Of a DNA stretch of 64,000 nucleotides, positions 6,795-62,618 are shown piece after piece. How positions within the stretch are numbered: position 1 is the stretch's first letter; each line of letters begins with the position of its first letter. The notes beneath the pieces are model-generated. The model worked only from the letters and a program-made list of their open reading frames with translations. It had not been told where the DNA came from and searched no databases. Position numbers and translations under genes: made by a program. Source of the stretch: Haladaptatus paucihalophilus DX253 (GTDB lineage Archaea; Halobacteriota; Halobacteria; Halobacteriales; Haladaptataceae); the NCBI RefSeq assembly GCF_000376445.1, contig NZ_AQXI01000001.1, positions 1,644,962-1,708,961 on the forward strand, in the 5' to 3' direction.

Positions 6795-6802
6795 TTATAA
6801 AA
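6795..6802 (+). promoter_or_regulatory. TATA box of metYX operon
   Basis: The sequence ttataaaa lies 26-33 bases upstream of the metY ATG. This fits a leaderless haloarchaeal promoter for the metY-metX pair. Confidence 0.7.
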
Positions 6803-6827
6803 TTCTGGGAGAATATGCGTATTACAC

Positions 6828-8159
6828 ATGAGCAACGACGGGTCCCGATTCGATACTCGAAGCGTTCACGCGGGACAGGAGCCGGACCCCGCGACGGGGG
6901 CGGTCGCCCCACCTCTCTACCAAACCACGTCCTACGCGTTCGAGGACGCCGACCACGCGGCAGATCTGTACGCGTTGGAGGCCGACGGCCATATCTACTC
7001 GCGCTTGAGCAACCCGACCGTCGAGATGCTGGAAGACCGCATCGCCTCGCTCGAAGGCGGGACGGATGCGGTCGCCACCGCCAGCGGCATGGCCGCGCTT
7101 GACGCCCTCACGCTCGTCCTCGCCGAATCGGGCGATAACGTCGTCCTCTCGACCGACACCTACGGCGGCACGACGGCCTACTTCGCCCACACCGCGACCC
7201 GCCGGGGAATCGACGCCCGTCTCGTGGAAACGCTCGACTACGACGCCTACGAGGAGGAAATCGACGACGACACGGCCTTCGTTCACGTCGAAACCGTCGG
7301 CAACCCGTCGCTCGTCACGCCCGACTTCGAGCGCGTGGCGGCCATCGCCCACGACCACGGCGTTCCGCTCGTCGTGGACAACACGTTCGCCACGCCCGCG
7401 CTCTGTCGCCCGCTCGAACACGGCGCGGATGCCGTCTGGGAGTCCACGACGAAGTGGCTCCACGGGAGCGGCACCACGGTCGGCGGGGTCCTCGTCGACG
7501 GCGGTGATTTCGACTGGAGCGACTACCCCGAAATCGGCGGCGAGAACCCGGCCTACCACGGCGTGAACTTCTCGAAAGACTTCTCGGACGCGCCGCTGGC
7601 CGCCGCCGCGAGGCTTCGGTCGGTTCGAAGCCTCGGCAACCAACAGTCCCCGTTCGACGCGTGGCAGACCCTCCAAGGAATCGAGACGCTGCCGCTTCGG
7701 ATGGACCGCCACTGCGAGAACGCCGCCATCGTGGCGGAGTACCTCGCGGACCACGACGAGGTGGCGTGGGTCGCGTATCCCGGCCTCGACGACCACCGGA
7801 CGCACGACAGCGCGAGTCGGTACCTGTCGGGGGGCTACGGCGGCATGATCGCCTTCGGCCTCGGGGAGTTCGAGGCGAGCAAGGCGTTCTGCGAGGACGT
7901 GGACCTCGCGTCCTTCCTCGCCAACATCGGCGACGCGAAGACGCTCGTCATCCACCCCGCGAGCACGACGCACGCACAACTCTCTCCCGACGAACAGCGG
8001 GCGGCGGGCGTCACGCGCGACCTGATTCGCCTGTCGGTGGGAATCGAGGACCCCGCGGACATCCTTGCCGACATCGAGAACGCCATCGAGTCGGCGACGG
8101 ACGAGGCGGCCGCCGCGACGAAAAACGGGGTGACACGAACAGAGGACTCGACACGATGA
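6828..8159 (+). CDS. metY: O-acetylhomoserine sulfhydrylase (PLP enzyme)
   Basis: This is a 443-residue Cys/Met-metabolism PLP enzyme. It converts O-acetylhomoserine and sulfide (or methanethiol) to homocysteine (or methionine). The PLP lysine is K209 in the ESTTKWLHGSG motif, and VVDNTFATP (about 182-190) supplies the PLP-contacting Asp. The N-terminal SVHAGQ and the VYSRLxNPT-like stretch (YSRLSNPTVE, 57-66) are typical of MetY. Length fits the MetY group, which is longer than MetB/MetC (about 380-400). Its stop overlaps the metX start by four bases (ATGA), so the two are translationally coupled in one pathway. The last 30 residues are low-complexity and acidic/Ala-rich. Confidence 0.93.
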   Translation: MSNDGSRFDTRSVHAGQEPDPATGAVAPPLYQTTSYAFEDADHAADLYALEADGHIYSRLSNPTVEMLEDRIASLEGGTDAVATASGMAALDALTLVLAESGDNVVLSTDTYGGTTAYFAHTATRRGIDARLVETLDYDAYEEEIDDDTAFVHVETVGNPSLVTPDFERVAAIAHDHGVPLVVDNTFATPALCRPLEHGADAVWESTTKWLHGSGTTVGGVLVDGGDFDWSDYPEIGGENPAYHGVNFSKDFSDAPLAAAARLRSVRSLGNQQSPFDAWQTLQGIETLPLRMDRHCENAAIVAEYLADHDEVAWVAYPGLDDHRTHDSASRYLSGGYGGMIAFGLGEFEASKAFCEDVDLASFLANIGDAKTLVIHPASTTHAQLSPDEQRAAGVTRDLIRLSVGIEDPADILADIENAIESATDEAAAATKNGVTRTEDSTR

Positions 8160-58412: not shown

Positions 58413-60659
58413 ATGTCTACCTCGGGGAACAGTCTCATCGACGAGGATACCGCCAACACCGTCGCTTCCGGACGTGAAACCATCGGAGCGATGCTTTCGA
58501 CGGCACAGACACACCTTCAGAAAGTCTTCATCGTATTCGTTCTCGGCTTCATCGGCATGTTCTACGCCATGTCGATGGTGGTGTGGCCGTTCCTGCGCGA
58601 CGTGACGACCTCCGGGATGTCACAGACAGTGATGAAACACGTCGAAATCGTCGCGGTGACGCCGTTCGACGTCATTCTCCTCCAAGCGAAAATAGCGATG
58701 TTCTCCGGTATTATTCTCGCTATCCCCGTTTTGCTCTATCTCGGCCGTGATTCGATTCGGCAACGCGAATGGTATCCCGAGTTCTCCATCTCCTATTGGA
58801 AGATAATCCCGCTGGTCGGCCTCGCGGCGGCCCTGTTCATCGGCGGACTGGCCTACGGGTACTCCGTCTATCTCCCGCTGATGTTCCAGTTCCTCGCCAA
58901 GAACGCGGTGCAGGCGAACCTGAGCCCGAAGTACGGTATCGTGCAGTGGACCGAGTTCGTCCTCATTATCTCGCTTTCGTTCGGTCTGGCCGCGGAACTG
59001 CCGCTCATCATGAGCGGCCTCAGCTACTCGGGCATCGTCAAATACGAGACGTTCCGCGACAAGTGGCGCTACGCAATCCTCACCATCTTCGTCTTCGGCG
59101 CGGTAGCGTCCCCGCCGGACCCGTTCACGCAGGTCATGTGGGCGATTCCGCTCGTCATCCTCTACGGATTCAGTCTCTATCTGTCGAAAATCCTCGTCAC
59201 CATCAAGCGCGGGAGCAGCAAGGTGAGCATCAGAAAATCGGTGGCGGAGCGGTGGAACTACCTCCTCGGTATCGCACTCATCGCCGGTGGCGCGACGTAC
59301 CTCTTCTTCAGCCGAGCCGGGGTCAGCTACGTGAACAGCCAACTGCTCCCGGCACTTCCGGCCGGGTTCCGACCCGCGGCGTTCTCCCCCATCGAGGAGG
59401 CGCTGGGCATGCCGCGCGGAACGGCCATCCTCCTCGTCGCCGGAGCGGTCGGGCTGGTCGCCCTCGTCGTCGCCGCTCTCTACTACCTGTTCGTCTCGCT
59501 CGAAGCGAACGCCGCAGTCGGCCAGCAGCGCGGTGGCGCACCGGCCGCGATCGACATCGAACAGCTCGACGCCGCCGGGGTTCGGGCCGCTCCGCCCGAA
59601 GTGTTCACCGAGATGGACGAGGGCGAATCGCTCGACTACGCCCGCGCCGCGATGGAGGCCGACCAACCCGAGAAGGCGCAGGCCATCTTCGACCGTTTCG
59701 ACGAAGCGAACGCCGAAGAGGAAGAAGAAGAGGAAGCCGCGGAATCGGACCCGGAGGTCCGCGAGGCCGAGGGCGCACCGCTCGCCGAGGACGTCGCCCA
59801 GCAACCGAGCCAAGAGGCCCGAGAAGAGGGCAACGTCCTCCAGCGCACCGCCGCGGGCGTGACGAACGCGTTCACGGAAGACGAGACGACCGAGGACGAC
59901 ATCGGCGGCTACTACTACGACTTCGCGTTCATCCTCCAGAGTCTCACGTCGAAGTTCTTCCGCATCGTCGGCGTGTTCATGCTCGTGCTCGCCAGCGTGT
60001 TCGTCTACCTGTACCAGGGCGGCATCGGCGACATCAACAGCGACTTCACGAGCCGTGTGCCACAGTCGATACTGGCGAACGGTCAACAGCTCAACGTCGT
60101 CACCCTGCACCCGGTCGAGGCGCTCATCTTCGAGGTGAAGATAAGCACCCTGCTCGCCGCCGTGTCGGTGCTCCCGATGGTGCTCTACTACAGTTGGCCC
60201 GCGATGAAGGAGCGCAAACTCGTCAGGGGCAACCGCAACGTGTTCTTCCTGTGGGGCGGCACGCTGTTCGTCGGACTCATCGTCGGGAGCTACGTCGGCT
60301 ACACCATCGTCGCCCCGAACATCATCTCGTGGCTCGTCACCGACGCCCACAACGCCGACATGCTCATCTACTACCGAGTGAAGGCGTTCTTCTGGCTCGT
60401 GTTCCTCACCACGGTCGGCATCGGGTTGCTCGCCGACGTACCGGTGACGATGTTCCTGTTCCACTGGGCCGGAATCGTCCCGTTCGAGTCGATGTTCGAA
60501 TACTGGCGCGGCGTCGTCATCGGTGTCTTCGCCGTCGCCGCACTGGTGACCCCCGACAGCCTCTACACGATGTTCCTCGTCGCCATCCCCGTCTCCGTCG
60601 CGTACATCTTCGGACTGAGCGTCCTCTGGATAGGGACGCTCGGCGGACGACGCGCCTGA
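58413..60659 (+). CDS. tatC2: Double TatC translocase protein (TatCt-like)
   Basis: This is a 748-residue fusion of two TatC domains, with about 14 membrane helices. The first TatC domain covers about residues 30-345 and the second about 500-745. The linker (about 345-500) is acidic (rich in EEEEEEAAESD) and lies on one side. The TatCt type is described in haloarchaea, where both the single (TatCo) and double forms occur. Its start at 58413 is supported by MSTSGNSLIDE; the RHH gene follows 36 bases after its stop. Confidence 0.93.
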   Translation: MSTSGNSLIDEDTANTVASGRETIGAMLSTAQTHLQKVFIVFVLGFIGMFYAMSMVVWPFLRDVTTSGMSQTVMKHVEIVAVTPFDVILLQAKIAMFSGIILAIPVLLYLGRDSIRQREWYPEFSISYWKIIPLVGLAAALFIGGLAYGYSVYLPLMFQFLAKNAVQANLSPKYGIVQWTEFVLIISLSFGLAAELPLIMSGLSYSGIVKYETFRDKWRYAILTIFVFGAVASPPDPFTQVMWAIPLVILYGFSLYLSKILVTIKRGSSKVSIRKSVAERWNYLLGIALIAGGATYLFFSRAGVSYVNSQLLPALPAGFRPAAFSPIEEALGMPRGTAILLVAGAVGLVALVVAALYYLFVSLEANAAVGQQRGGAPAAIDIEQLDAAGVRAAPPEVFTEMDEGESLDYARAAMEADQPEKAQAIFDRFDEANAEEEEEEEAAESDPEVREAEGAPLAEDVAQQPSQEAREEGNVLQRTAAGVTNAFTEDETTEDDIGGYYYDFAFILQSLTSKFFRIVGVFMLVLASVFVYLYQGGIGDINSDFTSRVPQSILANGQQLNVVTLHPVEALIFEVKISTLLAAVSVLPMVLYYSWPAMKERKLVRGNRNVFFLWGGTLFVGLIVGSYVGYTIVAPNIISWLVTDAHNADMLIYYRVKAFFWLVFLTTVGIGLLADVPVTMFLFHWAGIVPFESMFEYWRGVVIGVFAVAALVTPDSLYTMFLVAIPVSVAYIFGLSVLWIGTLGGRRA

Positions 60660-60672
60660 CGCTGGGCTTAAG

Positions 60673-60688
60673 TATTCCTCCCGGAATA
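60673..60688 (+). promoter_or_regulatory. Inverted repeat at the RHH gene promoter
   Basis: The exact arms tattcc (60673-60678) and ggaata (60683-60688) lie between a TATA-like cttaagta (60667-60674) and the ATG at 60696, covering the probable transcription start. A site of this kind would allow the RHH protein to repress its own operon. Confidence 0.55.
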
Positions 60689-60695
60689 TCCTGGT

Positions 60696-60869
60696 ATGAC
60701 CAAGATAAGCGTCGAAGTGCCCGACGAACTCCTCTCGGATTTGGACGACCACGTGGGCGACGACGGGAAGTTCGTCAACAGGAGCGAGGCGATTCGCGCT
60801 TCGATTCGAAAGATGCTGGACATTCTGGACGAGATCGACGAACGCCACGGGAGACTTGAAGATGACTGA
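60696..60869 (+). CDS. CopG-type ribbon-helix-helix protein
   Basis: This is a 57-residue DNA-binding protein. The N-terminal strand MTKISVEVPDELLSDLDDHV is the ribbon, then GKFVNRSEAIRASIRKMLDI forms the two helices; this is the CopG/Arc-type ribbon-helix-helix. It is preceded by a leaderless-type TATA box and an inverted repeat. Its stop overlaps the start of the following transporter gene by eight bases, so the two are translationally coupled. It probably regulates this operon. Confidence 0.88.
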   Translation: MTKISVEVPDELLSDLDDHVGDDGKFVNRSEAIRASIRKMLDILDEIDERHGRLEDD

Positions 60870-61590
60870 GCGGCGGGACGCTCACTCGGTACTGGCCACC
60901 GGGCAACTCGGCCTCACCGCGCTGTTCGTGACGGCGCTCGTGACGGCACAGCTCACGGCGGCGAAGGTGCTCCAGTTCACCATTCCGCTCACCCTGCCGA
61001 TTACGGGCGACGCGCTCGTCCTTCCGGGGGCGGCGCTGGCCTACGCGCTGACCTTCTTCGCCTCCGACTGCTACGCCGAGGTGTACGGACGAAAGGCGGC
61101 CCAGCGACTGGTCAACGTCGCCTTCGTCATGATATTCGCCATGCTGGTGCTCGTCTGGTCCACCATCGAAGCGCCCGCCGCGCAGAACAGCGTGGACCCC
61201 GCCAAGTTCCGCACCGTCCTCAGCGCGAGCACGAACATCGTCGTCGGAAGCCTCTGTGCCTACGTCGTCAGTCAGAACTGGGACGTCATCGTCTTCCACC
61301 GAATCCGCGACCTCACCGACGGCGACCACCTCTGGGCTCGCAACATCGGGTCCACGGCGAGCAGTCAGGCAATCGATACCGTCATCTTCGTCGGCGTCGC
61401 GTTCTACGCGCTCCCGCGCTTCGCCGGTATCGGGCCGATACTCCCGGAGAACGTCATCCTCTCGCTCATCGTCGGCCAGTACGTCTTCAAACTGTTCGTC
61501 GCGCTGCTCGACACGCCGTTCGTCTACGCCGTCGTCGGGTTTCTCCGGTCGCAAACGTCCGCAAGTAGGGTGCCGAGTTCGGCCGACTGA
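60862..61590 (+). CDS. VUT/YhhQ family transporter (queuosine/archaeosine precursor)
   Basis: This is a 242-residue, six-helix membrane protein of the VUT (YhhQ) family, which in bacteria imports queuosine precursors. Helices begin around residues 13, 38, 57, 84, 115 and 202. The conserved FFASDCYAEVYGRKAAQ segment (about 68-84) and IGSTASSQAIDTVIF (about 164-178) are typical. In an archaeon the substrate could be the archaeosine precursor preQ0 or a related base, but this is inferred. The ATG at 60862 overlaps the RHH gene, so it is coupled to it. Confidence 0.85.
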   Translation: MTERRDAHSVLATGQLGLTALFVTALVTAQLTAAKVLQFTIPLTLPITGDALVLPGAALAYALTFFASDCYAEVYGRKAAQRLVNVAFVMIFAMLVLVWSTIEAPAAQNSVDPAKFRTVLSASTNIVVGSLCAYVVSQNWDVIVFHRIRDLTDGDHLWARNIGSTASSQAIDTVIFVGVAFYALPRFAGIGPILPENVILSLIVGQYVFKLFVALLDTPFVYAVVGFLRSQTSASRVPSSAD

Positions 61591-62462: not shown

Positions 62463-62618
62463 CTACCCGTCTCGATACTCACATTCGGCCTGATGCCGAA
62501 TGAGATCCGATTTGTTCTTGCCACCGACGAAGACCTTCTTCTTACAGTAATTACAGACTCCCCATCGAGGGTCGTCTTCGTCGAGCGTGTATTCTTCCGG
62601 CCGCCACTCCTGCGACAT
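62463..62618 (-). CDS. Small CCHC-like zinc-finger protein
   Basis: This is a 51-residue protein with CNYC near residues 22-25 and an HQAEC pair (H42, C46), a CxxC...HxxxC arrangement that could bind zinc. It is basic in the middle (KKKVFVGGKNKSD) and acidic at the N-terminus, and could bind nucleic acid. The gene is too short for most callers. It is divergent from pcn with a 194-base gap. No function is known. Confidence 0.7.
   Translation of the reverse strand: MSQEWRPEEYTLDEDDPRWGVCNYCKKKVFVGGKNKSDLIRHQAECEYRDG

Follow-up and report, generated by a model that had tools for sequence, protein, structure and literature searches.

We propose that the small ribbon-helix-helix (RHH) protein encoded at this locus, directly upstream of a VUT/YhhQ-type transporter gene, is probably an autoregulated repressor of preQ0 supply for archaeosine, a tRNA modification of Archaea, acting on both the import and the synthesis of this precursor. 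Comparison across genomes establishes, at the level of sequence, an RHH-VUT operon, a conserved site at both proposed targets, linkage of the genes involved and their joint loss. This reading names a specific protein, a likely DNA site and a set of targets, and the conservation reaches beyond haloarchaea to families on the methanogen side of the phylum. Our searches of the open-access literature found no archaeal regulator described for the supply of archaeosine or preQ0.

In the window, by which we mean the whole stretch of 64,000 bases that was analysed from this 4.3-Mb genome, the RHH gene follows a TatC-like gene on the forward strand that ends at 60659, and an FtsJ-like gene lies in convergent orientation 3' of the VUT gene (Table 1). 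The longest ORF of the VUT gene begins with a TTG at 60856, while the likely start is the ATG at 60862. With this ATG the two genes overlap by 8 bp (60862-60869), and the ORF coordinates (60696-60869 and 60862-61590) thus confirm the eight-base overlap between a 57-residue RHH gene and a transporter gene that the initial annotation had described. The 6-bp inverted repeat that it had placed over the expected transcription start is likewise present (TATTCC-TCCC-GGAATA, 60673-60688) and ends 7 bases before the ATG. Further along, on the reverse strand at 62463-62618, an ORF of 51 aa encodes a CxxC pair together with an HxxxC motif; it is kept beside FtsJ within the same genus (81-95% identity), and no Pfam or NCBIfam match was found for it.

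Table 1. Features of the RHH-VUT locus (positions in the window).
Feature	Position	Strand	Basis
RHH-VUT promoter: TATA-like element CTTAAGTA	60667..60674	+	Inferred from position; same TTAAG before the queD site in this genome
Predicted operator GTATTCCTCCCGGAATAT, 18-bp palindrome with a 16-bp core (60673-60688)	60672..60689	.	Matrix score 18.1 bits
RHH regulator gene, 57 aa, ATG start	60696..60869	+	ORF, Pfam match
VUT/YhhQ/QPTR transporter gene (PF02592, TIGR00697)	60862..61590	+	Pfam/TIGRFAM; precursor-importer role (preQ0-type) predicted

Taken alone, the 6-bp repeat is at chance level, since the window contains 36 perfect repeats of 6 bp around a 4-bp loop (498 when loops of 0-12 are allowed), and we therefore rejected it as standalone evidence. 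It is nevertheless real as a conserved element, judging by its conservation across genomes. De novo discovery of palindromic motifs in the 130 bp before RHH at 55 VUT-linked loci returned gTATTCtC..GaGAATAc, with log-likelihood ratios (LLR) of 262-290 as compared to 23-33 in shuffled sequences, whereas the same procedure applied to 35 RHH loci without VUT found only weak GC-rich patterns. At an LLR of 290, against 24-33 in the corresponding shuffles, the consensus read gTATTC.C..G.GAATAc. The motif reached at least 10 bits at 48 of the 55 linked and 6 of the 35 unlinked loci (Fisher p 3.6e-11, uncorrected for kinship among genomes that are not independent, and with a 10-bit threshold picked after the scores had been seen), and 48 of the 55 linked loci still reached it when the matrix was trained with each family left out. 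Its centre usually lies at about -15 relative to the ATG, downstream of a TATA-like box and ahead of the point where a leaderless transcript would be expected to begin. The site described here has the same position (centre about 15 bp from the ATG of RHH), and in some genomes the motif sits 50-100 bp upstream. Once column composition was accounted for, the two arms covaried only weakly (z 2.1 at centre -15.5, which other centres equalled), and the case for an operator therefore rests on motif conservation and not on covariation. In line with this, the operator-like repeat of the initial annotation holds as a conserved promoter element, and the putative operator itself extends beyond the 6-bp repeat to a palindrome of 16-18 bp.

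The window contains a single TATTC-N6-GAATA core, and the whole 4.3-Mb genome likewise has a single exact match, at the RHH promoter. Sites with at most one mismatch number 41 in the genome, and we read the context of 15 of them, the RHH promoter included. The sole other one of these 15 that closely precedes an ATG is L214 (10.7 bits); about 90 bp downstream of it begins a long ORF whose product resembles a membrane transporter. Within the window, a second matrix match (6799-6816, 13.7 bits) about 20 bp before an ORF at 6828 (MSNDGSRFDTRSVHAGQEPD...) is either due to chance or an extra target. In some genomes of families f4 and f5 (L180, L181, L190 and L178), an upstream ORF of 23-24 codons follows the operator, for example MRAFRQPARTVVVQVVDNRVSRR; it spans about -80 to -7 of RHH and ends with a Shine-Dalgarno-like AGGTGA before the RHH start. 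The similarity of these upstream peptides in different genera suggests a leader peptide or translational coupling.

The same site stands at the promoters of queD. In this genome, queD, queE and queC form one operon with queD first (QueE and QueC being named by sequence motifs and tblastn, not by a family scan), and the queD promoter carries TTTAAGTATTCTCTCGATAATCTCCGAATATG with 19.5 bits and the same spacing as at RHH. Across 80 panel genomes, a search for queD matched 61, three of them weakly, and 60 queD loci were scored with the RHH-trained matrix, which had seen no queD promoter in training; a second QueD-like gene (L293 in G353) was excluded from this set. At least 10 bits were reached by 57 of the 60 queD promoters (median 15.7), and by 39 of 40 outside family f8. 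Moreover, when queD promoters from outside f8 were used independently for motif discovery, they returned gTAaTctCcgGagAtTAc, which correlates at 0.89 with the RHH matrix. Weak queD sites occur in f4 and f6 (G182 with 2.1, G061 with 8.9 and G077 with 7.5 bits). Of the 80 panel genomes, 5 have no site of at least 10 bits at either RHH or queD, and one of these, G219, would score 19.6 bits if the start were placed further in.

Control promoters rarely match. Promoters of FtsJ, TatC and PCNA genes reached 10 bits in 1 of 119 cases, and other ORFs had a matrix match in 11 of 353, some of which apparently represent divergent neighbours that share an intergenic region, with 1 of 353 centred at -15 +-2. 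The promoters of tgtA, which encodes the enzyme that inserts the base into tRNA, carried no site at -15 in any of 14 genomes, and tgtA was dropped as a target. These counts bear directly on the view that the motif represents nothing more than the basal elements of a leaderless promoter, namely a TATA box and an AT-rich -10 element, and no operator. The site does abut a TATA-like element, in a region where AT-richness is general to promoters, but basal sequence would hardly account for the low control scores or for the conservation of both arms of the palindrome; in addition, a TTAAG box is present without the palindrome at the RHH promoters of f8 (at least 10 bits in 1 of 24). We therefore regard this explanation as very unlikely and retain the palindrome as the predicted operator. 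At such f8 loci, L152, L156 and L172 among them, RHH is preceded by a different conserved pattern, cTTAAG....c.gCcTgCGAACg, which may belong to the basal promoter or serve some other control.

The co-occurrence of RHH and VUT genes in haloarchaea that the initial annotation had named as a check is borne out, in that VUT follows RHH in 55 of the 90 genomes (88 genera) in which the RHH locus was read. It does so in all loci read from f1, f5, f9, f13 and f15, in 16 of 17 from f4, 3 of 4 from f6 and 1 of 3 from f10, and in none from f7 (0 of 4), f8 (0 of 24), f11 (0 of 2) and f12 (0 of 1). Where VUT has moved off, RHH is retained, and the Natrialbaceae-like f8 genomes have the site at queD instead. 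For example, in G302, G128 and G145 the sole exact TATTC-N6-GAATA of the genome lies 15 bp before the start of queD, which is followed by QueE, and the RHH promoters have no exact core. Of the other f7/f8 genomes tested, G063, G216, G078 and G023 have the exact core elsewhere and G287 lacks it; in total, 7 of the 8 f7/f8 genomes tested have no more than one exact site, and G216 has three. Relocated VUT genes have the site in only 17 of 57 cases, and control of these genes in trans was consequently dropped from the model.

RHH also adjoins genes of precursor synthesis. In genus g8 (G061, G069, G077, G093 with two loci, and G105), queD is the gene that comes immediately after RHH; this genus from the gene order of the named Halococcus loci L087 and L093 is probably Halococcus. 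The same order is found in G344, and in G026 RHH is divergent from queD. Within g8, queD is found in all 5 RHH-bearing genomes tested (in G069 as a fragment at a contig end) and in none of 5 genomes without RHH. Likewise, RHH and queD are both present in G026 and both missing from G038, and G060 lacks RHH, queD and VUT alike. When all 22 genomes without an RHH orthologue were tested, queD was found only in G019 (63% complete), whose queD promoter scores -1.4 bits and thus has no site. Outside the order, we read 20 RHH loci with 55-74% identity, and 11 of them have que genes (queC, queD or queE) or VUT beside RHH; these belong to f21, f25, f26, f33, f39 and f41 and make up 11 of 11 loci outside f19. 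Promoters of at least 12 bits occurred at 8 of these 11 linked loci and at 0 of 9 f19 loci, and the two f33 loci carry GTATTCTCTCAGGAATAC and GTATTCCCCCAGGAATAC. In the Methanosarcinaceae-like f19 (L383-L389, L400 and L402), RHH orthologues of 55-71% identity have neither the palindrome nor que or VUT neighbours (9 of 9).

The f19 loci are relevant to the suggestion that another transcription factor binds the palindrome and that RHH merely travels with these genes or has other targets. Binding of the palindrome by RHH is itself a prediction, and RHH is kept without a visible site both in f19 and in G006, a genome with no site at RHH or VUT and no queD. A passenger would nevertheless not be expected to adjoin VUT or que genes in many families, nor to be lost jointly with queD, with the only RHH-less genome that retains queD having no site, and we hold this alternative to be quite unlikely. 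Small RHH proteins are often antitoxins, and one could also imagine that an antitoxin-like RHH or a mobile module came to lie before a transporter gene by chance. Given that the usual partner is the VUT transporter or a set of preQ0 enzymes and that the orthologue is near-universal in the order, we find this extremely improbable. We thus favour RHH as the regulator that acts at the palindrome. The initial annotation had considered a link between RHH proteins and queuosine/archaeosine-precursor transporters as unestablished, and comparison now supports a link to the 7-deazaguanine pathway through the queD sites, the que adjacency and the co-loss. Its notion of a self-regulated transport operon stands with regard to the site at the VUT-linked loci and falls short in scope, as the proposed regulon comprises import together with synthesis and RHH is kept without VUT.

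In palindrome-bearing loci of f10 and f12 (L203, L204 and L205), the site lies at the RHH promoter, VUT is absent and the QueD relatives are distant (33-40% identity). Four genomes (G068, G120, G153 and G163) have two or three close RHH copies and not one.

The RHH protein matches RHH_1/CopG (PF01402) with 22.0 bits, above the gathering cut-off of 20.5. Its predicted structure (pLDDT 90) has helices at residues 10-17 and 29-50 and an extended segment at residues 1-8, which is without a paired strand in this monomer model. A Foldseek search of the PDB with this model gave no significant match, and a sequence search of the PDB found NikR as its sole match (E 0.023). The protein appears as a bare RHH domain whose second helix is lengthened by a conserved helical extension of about 12 residues. 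Across 37 RHH sequences there is no variation at K3, P9, R34 and R38 or, past the RHH domain, at D42, D45, D48, R50 and R53. This invariance beyond the domain suggests a further function for the tail, such as contact with a ligand, a partner or another subunit of an oligomer. Matches of E <= 1e-3 were found in 389 of the 392 genomes of the order, 19 of them weak and at the level of paralogues, and a clear orthologue (E <= 3.5e-14) in 370 of 392; orthologues were also found in other families of the phylum.

Regulators of the NikR and MetJ type combine an RHH fold with a palindromic operator and control the uptake or synthesis of metals or metabolites. The protein described here is predicted to share the DNA-binding fold and the palindromic operator, but has only its short helical extension in place of a C-terminal ligand domain. 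NikR models (129-148 positions) score below their cut-off and cover only residues 1-43, leaving no counterpart of the C-terminal nickel-binding domain in a protein of 57 aa in all. The lack of any known ligand domain counts against the model proposed here.

The nearest NCBIfam model is that of CdrS (NF058555), with 34.3 bits, far below its equivalog cut-off of 100. CdrS, encoded in the haloarchaeal cdrS-ftsZ2 operon, is likewise a small stand-alone RHH protein at the head of an operon, but its partner is ftsZ2, whereas RHH here has tatC, VUT and the ftsJ-like gene as neighbours, VUT or que genes as partners and different proposed targets. Passages of PMC8406309 describe CdrS as a global regulator that is able to activate, and RHH could similarly be an activator or global regulator for which the preQ0 genes are only part of the targets. 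The distant match to CdrS, together with the high conservation of RHH and its presence even without VUT, would fit such a role. We believe this to be unlikely, however, as the site lies between the TATA element and the start, a position that passages of the same paper (PMC8406309) associate with inhibition, and as exact sites are so rare per genome.

The VUT protein matches Vut_1 (PF02592) with 173.1 bits (cut-off 27.2) and the queuosine precursor transporter family TIGR00697 with 144.8 bits (cut-off 50.95). It therefore belongs to the same Pfam and TIGRFAM family as the E. coli preQ0 importer YhhQ/QPTR (COG1738), but scores only 50.3 bits against the YhhQ equivalog for preQ0/preQ1 transport (PRK11212, cut-off 252), and preQ0 is its predicted substrate. 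COG1738 proteins transport preQ0 in E. coli and also occur in Archaea, where preQ0 salvage is considered likely (passages of PMC5372724). VUT is present in 368 of the 392 sampled genomes of the order. A full queD is missing from 22 panel genomes, of which 21 have VUT and 19 have the operator at RHH; conversely, a clear queD was found in 13 of the 24 VUT-less genomes, distant relatives alone in 4 and neither in 7, and the corresponding numbers for the 12 VUT-less genomes that are at least 90% complete are 9, 2 and 1. This complementary presence suggests that import and synthesis of preQ0 tend to replace one another, as would be expected if VUT imports preQ0. The proposed regulon in turn supports a role of archaeal VUT proteins in preQ0 import. 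In G390, a second, distant VUT relative (L281, 31% identity) is divergent from queD at a distance of 178 bp, and an operator of 18.0 bits lies near the queD start.

We infer from these comparisons that RHH binds the conserved site, that binding leads to repression and that an effector controls it. RHH, as a dimer or as several dimers, would bind gTATTCtC..GaGAATAc, which lies past the TATA element and ahead of where the leaderless transcript begins, and would there most likely block assembly of the initiation complex; it is this position of the operator that argues for repression. The predicted targets are its own transcript, which includes the VUT importer gene, and the queD-queE-queC operon, on which it would act in trans. 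The signal is probably preQ0 sufficiency, sensed directly or via a partner, and scarcity of the precursor would lead to release of RHH. Several findings speak against this model: the f19, f10/f12 and G006 cases, the weak queD sites, the 5 panel genomes below 10 bits, the relocated VUT genes that mostly have no site, the weak covariation of the arms and, in f8, a conserved DNA-contact strand though the f8 RHH gene has no site. A possible but doubtful extension is that RHH itself senses preQ0, or another archaeosine precursor, with tail residues D42, D45, D48, R50 and R53 forming a ligand pocket in the dimer. If so, RHH would be among the smallest ligand-sensing transcription factors and an archaeal protein counterpart of the preQ1 riboswitch.

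In bacteria, a preQ1 riboswitch and PurR control que genes and yhhQ, as described in passages of PMC5372724. The resemblance to the present case, as far as those passages go, is that COG1738 transport is controlled jointly with the 7-deazaguanine pathway, whereas the bacterial riboswitch is an RNA sensor and a protein operator is predicted here. Searches with Rfam found no riboswitch in positions 60400-61000 of the window or in L278, L241, L304, L395 and L307, and a preQ1 riboswitch regulon was rejected on the basis of these promoters. In two genomes, we also noted extra TGT-like gene pairs (G149:C2:180072-184341 and G023:C1:1500286-1504728) that are present besides tgtA and an arcS-like gene and that possibly represent DNA 7-deazaguanine modification or a mobile element.
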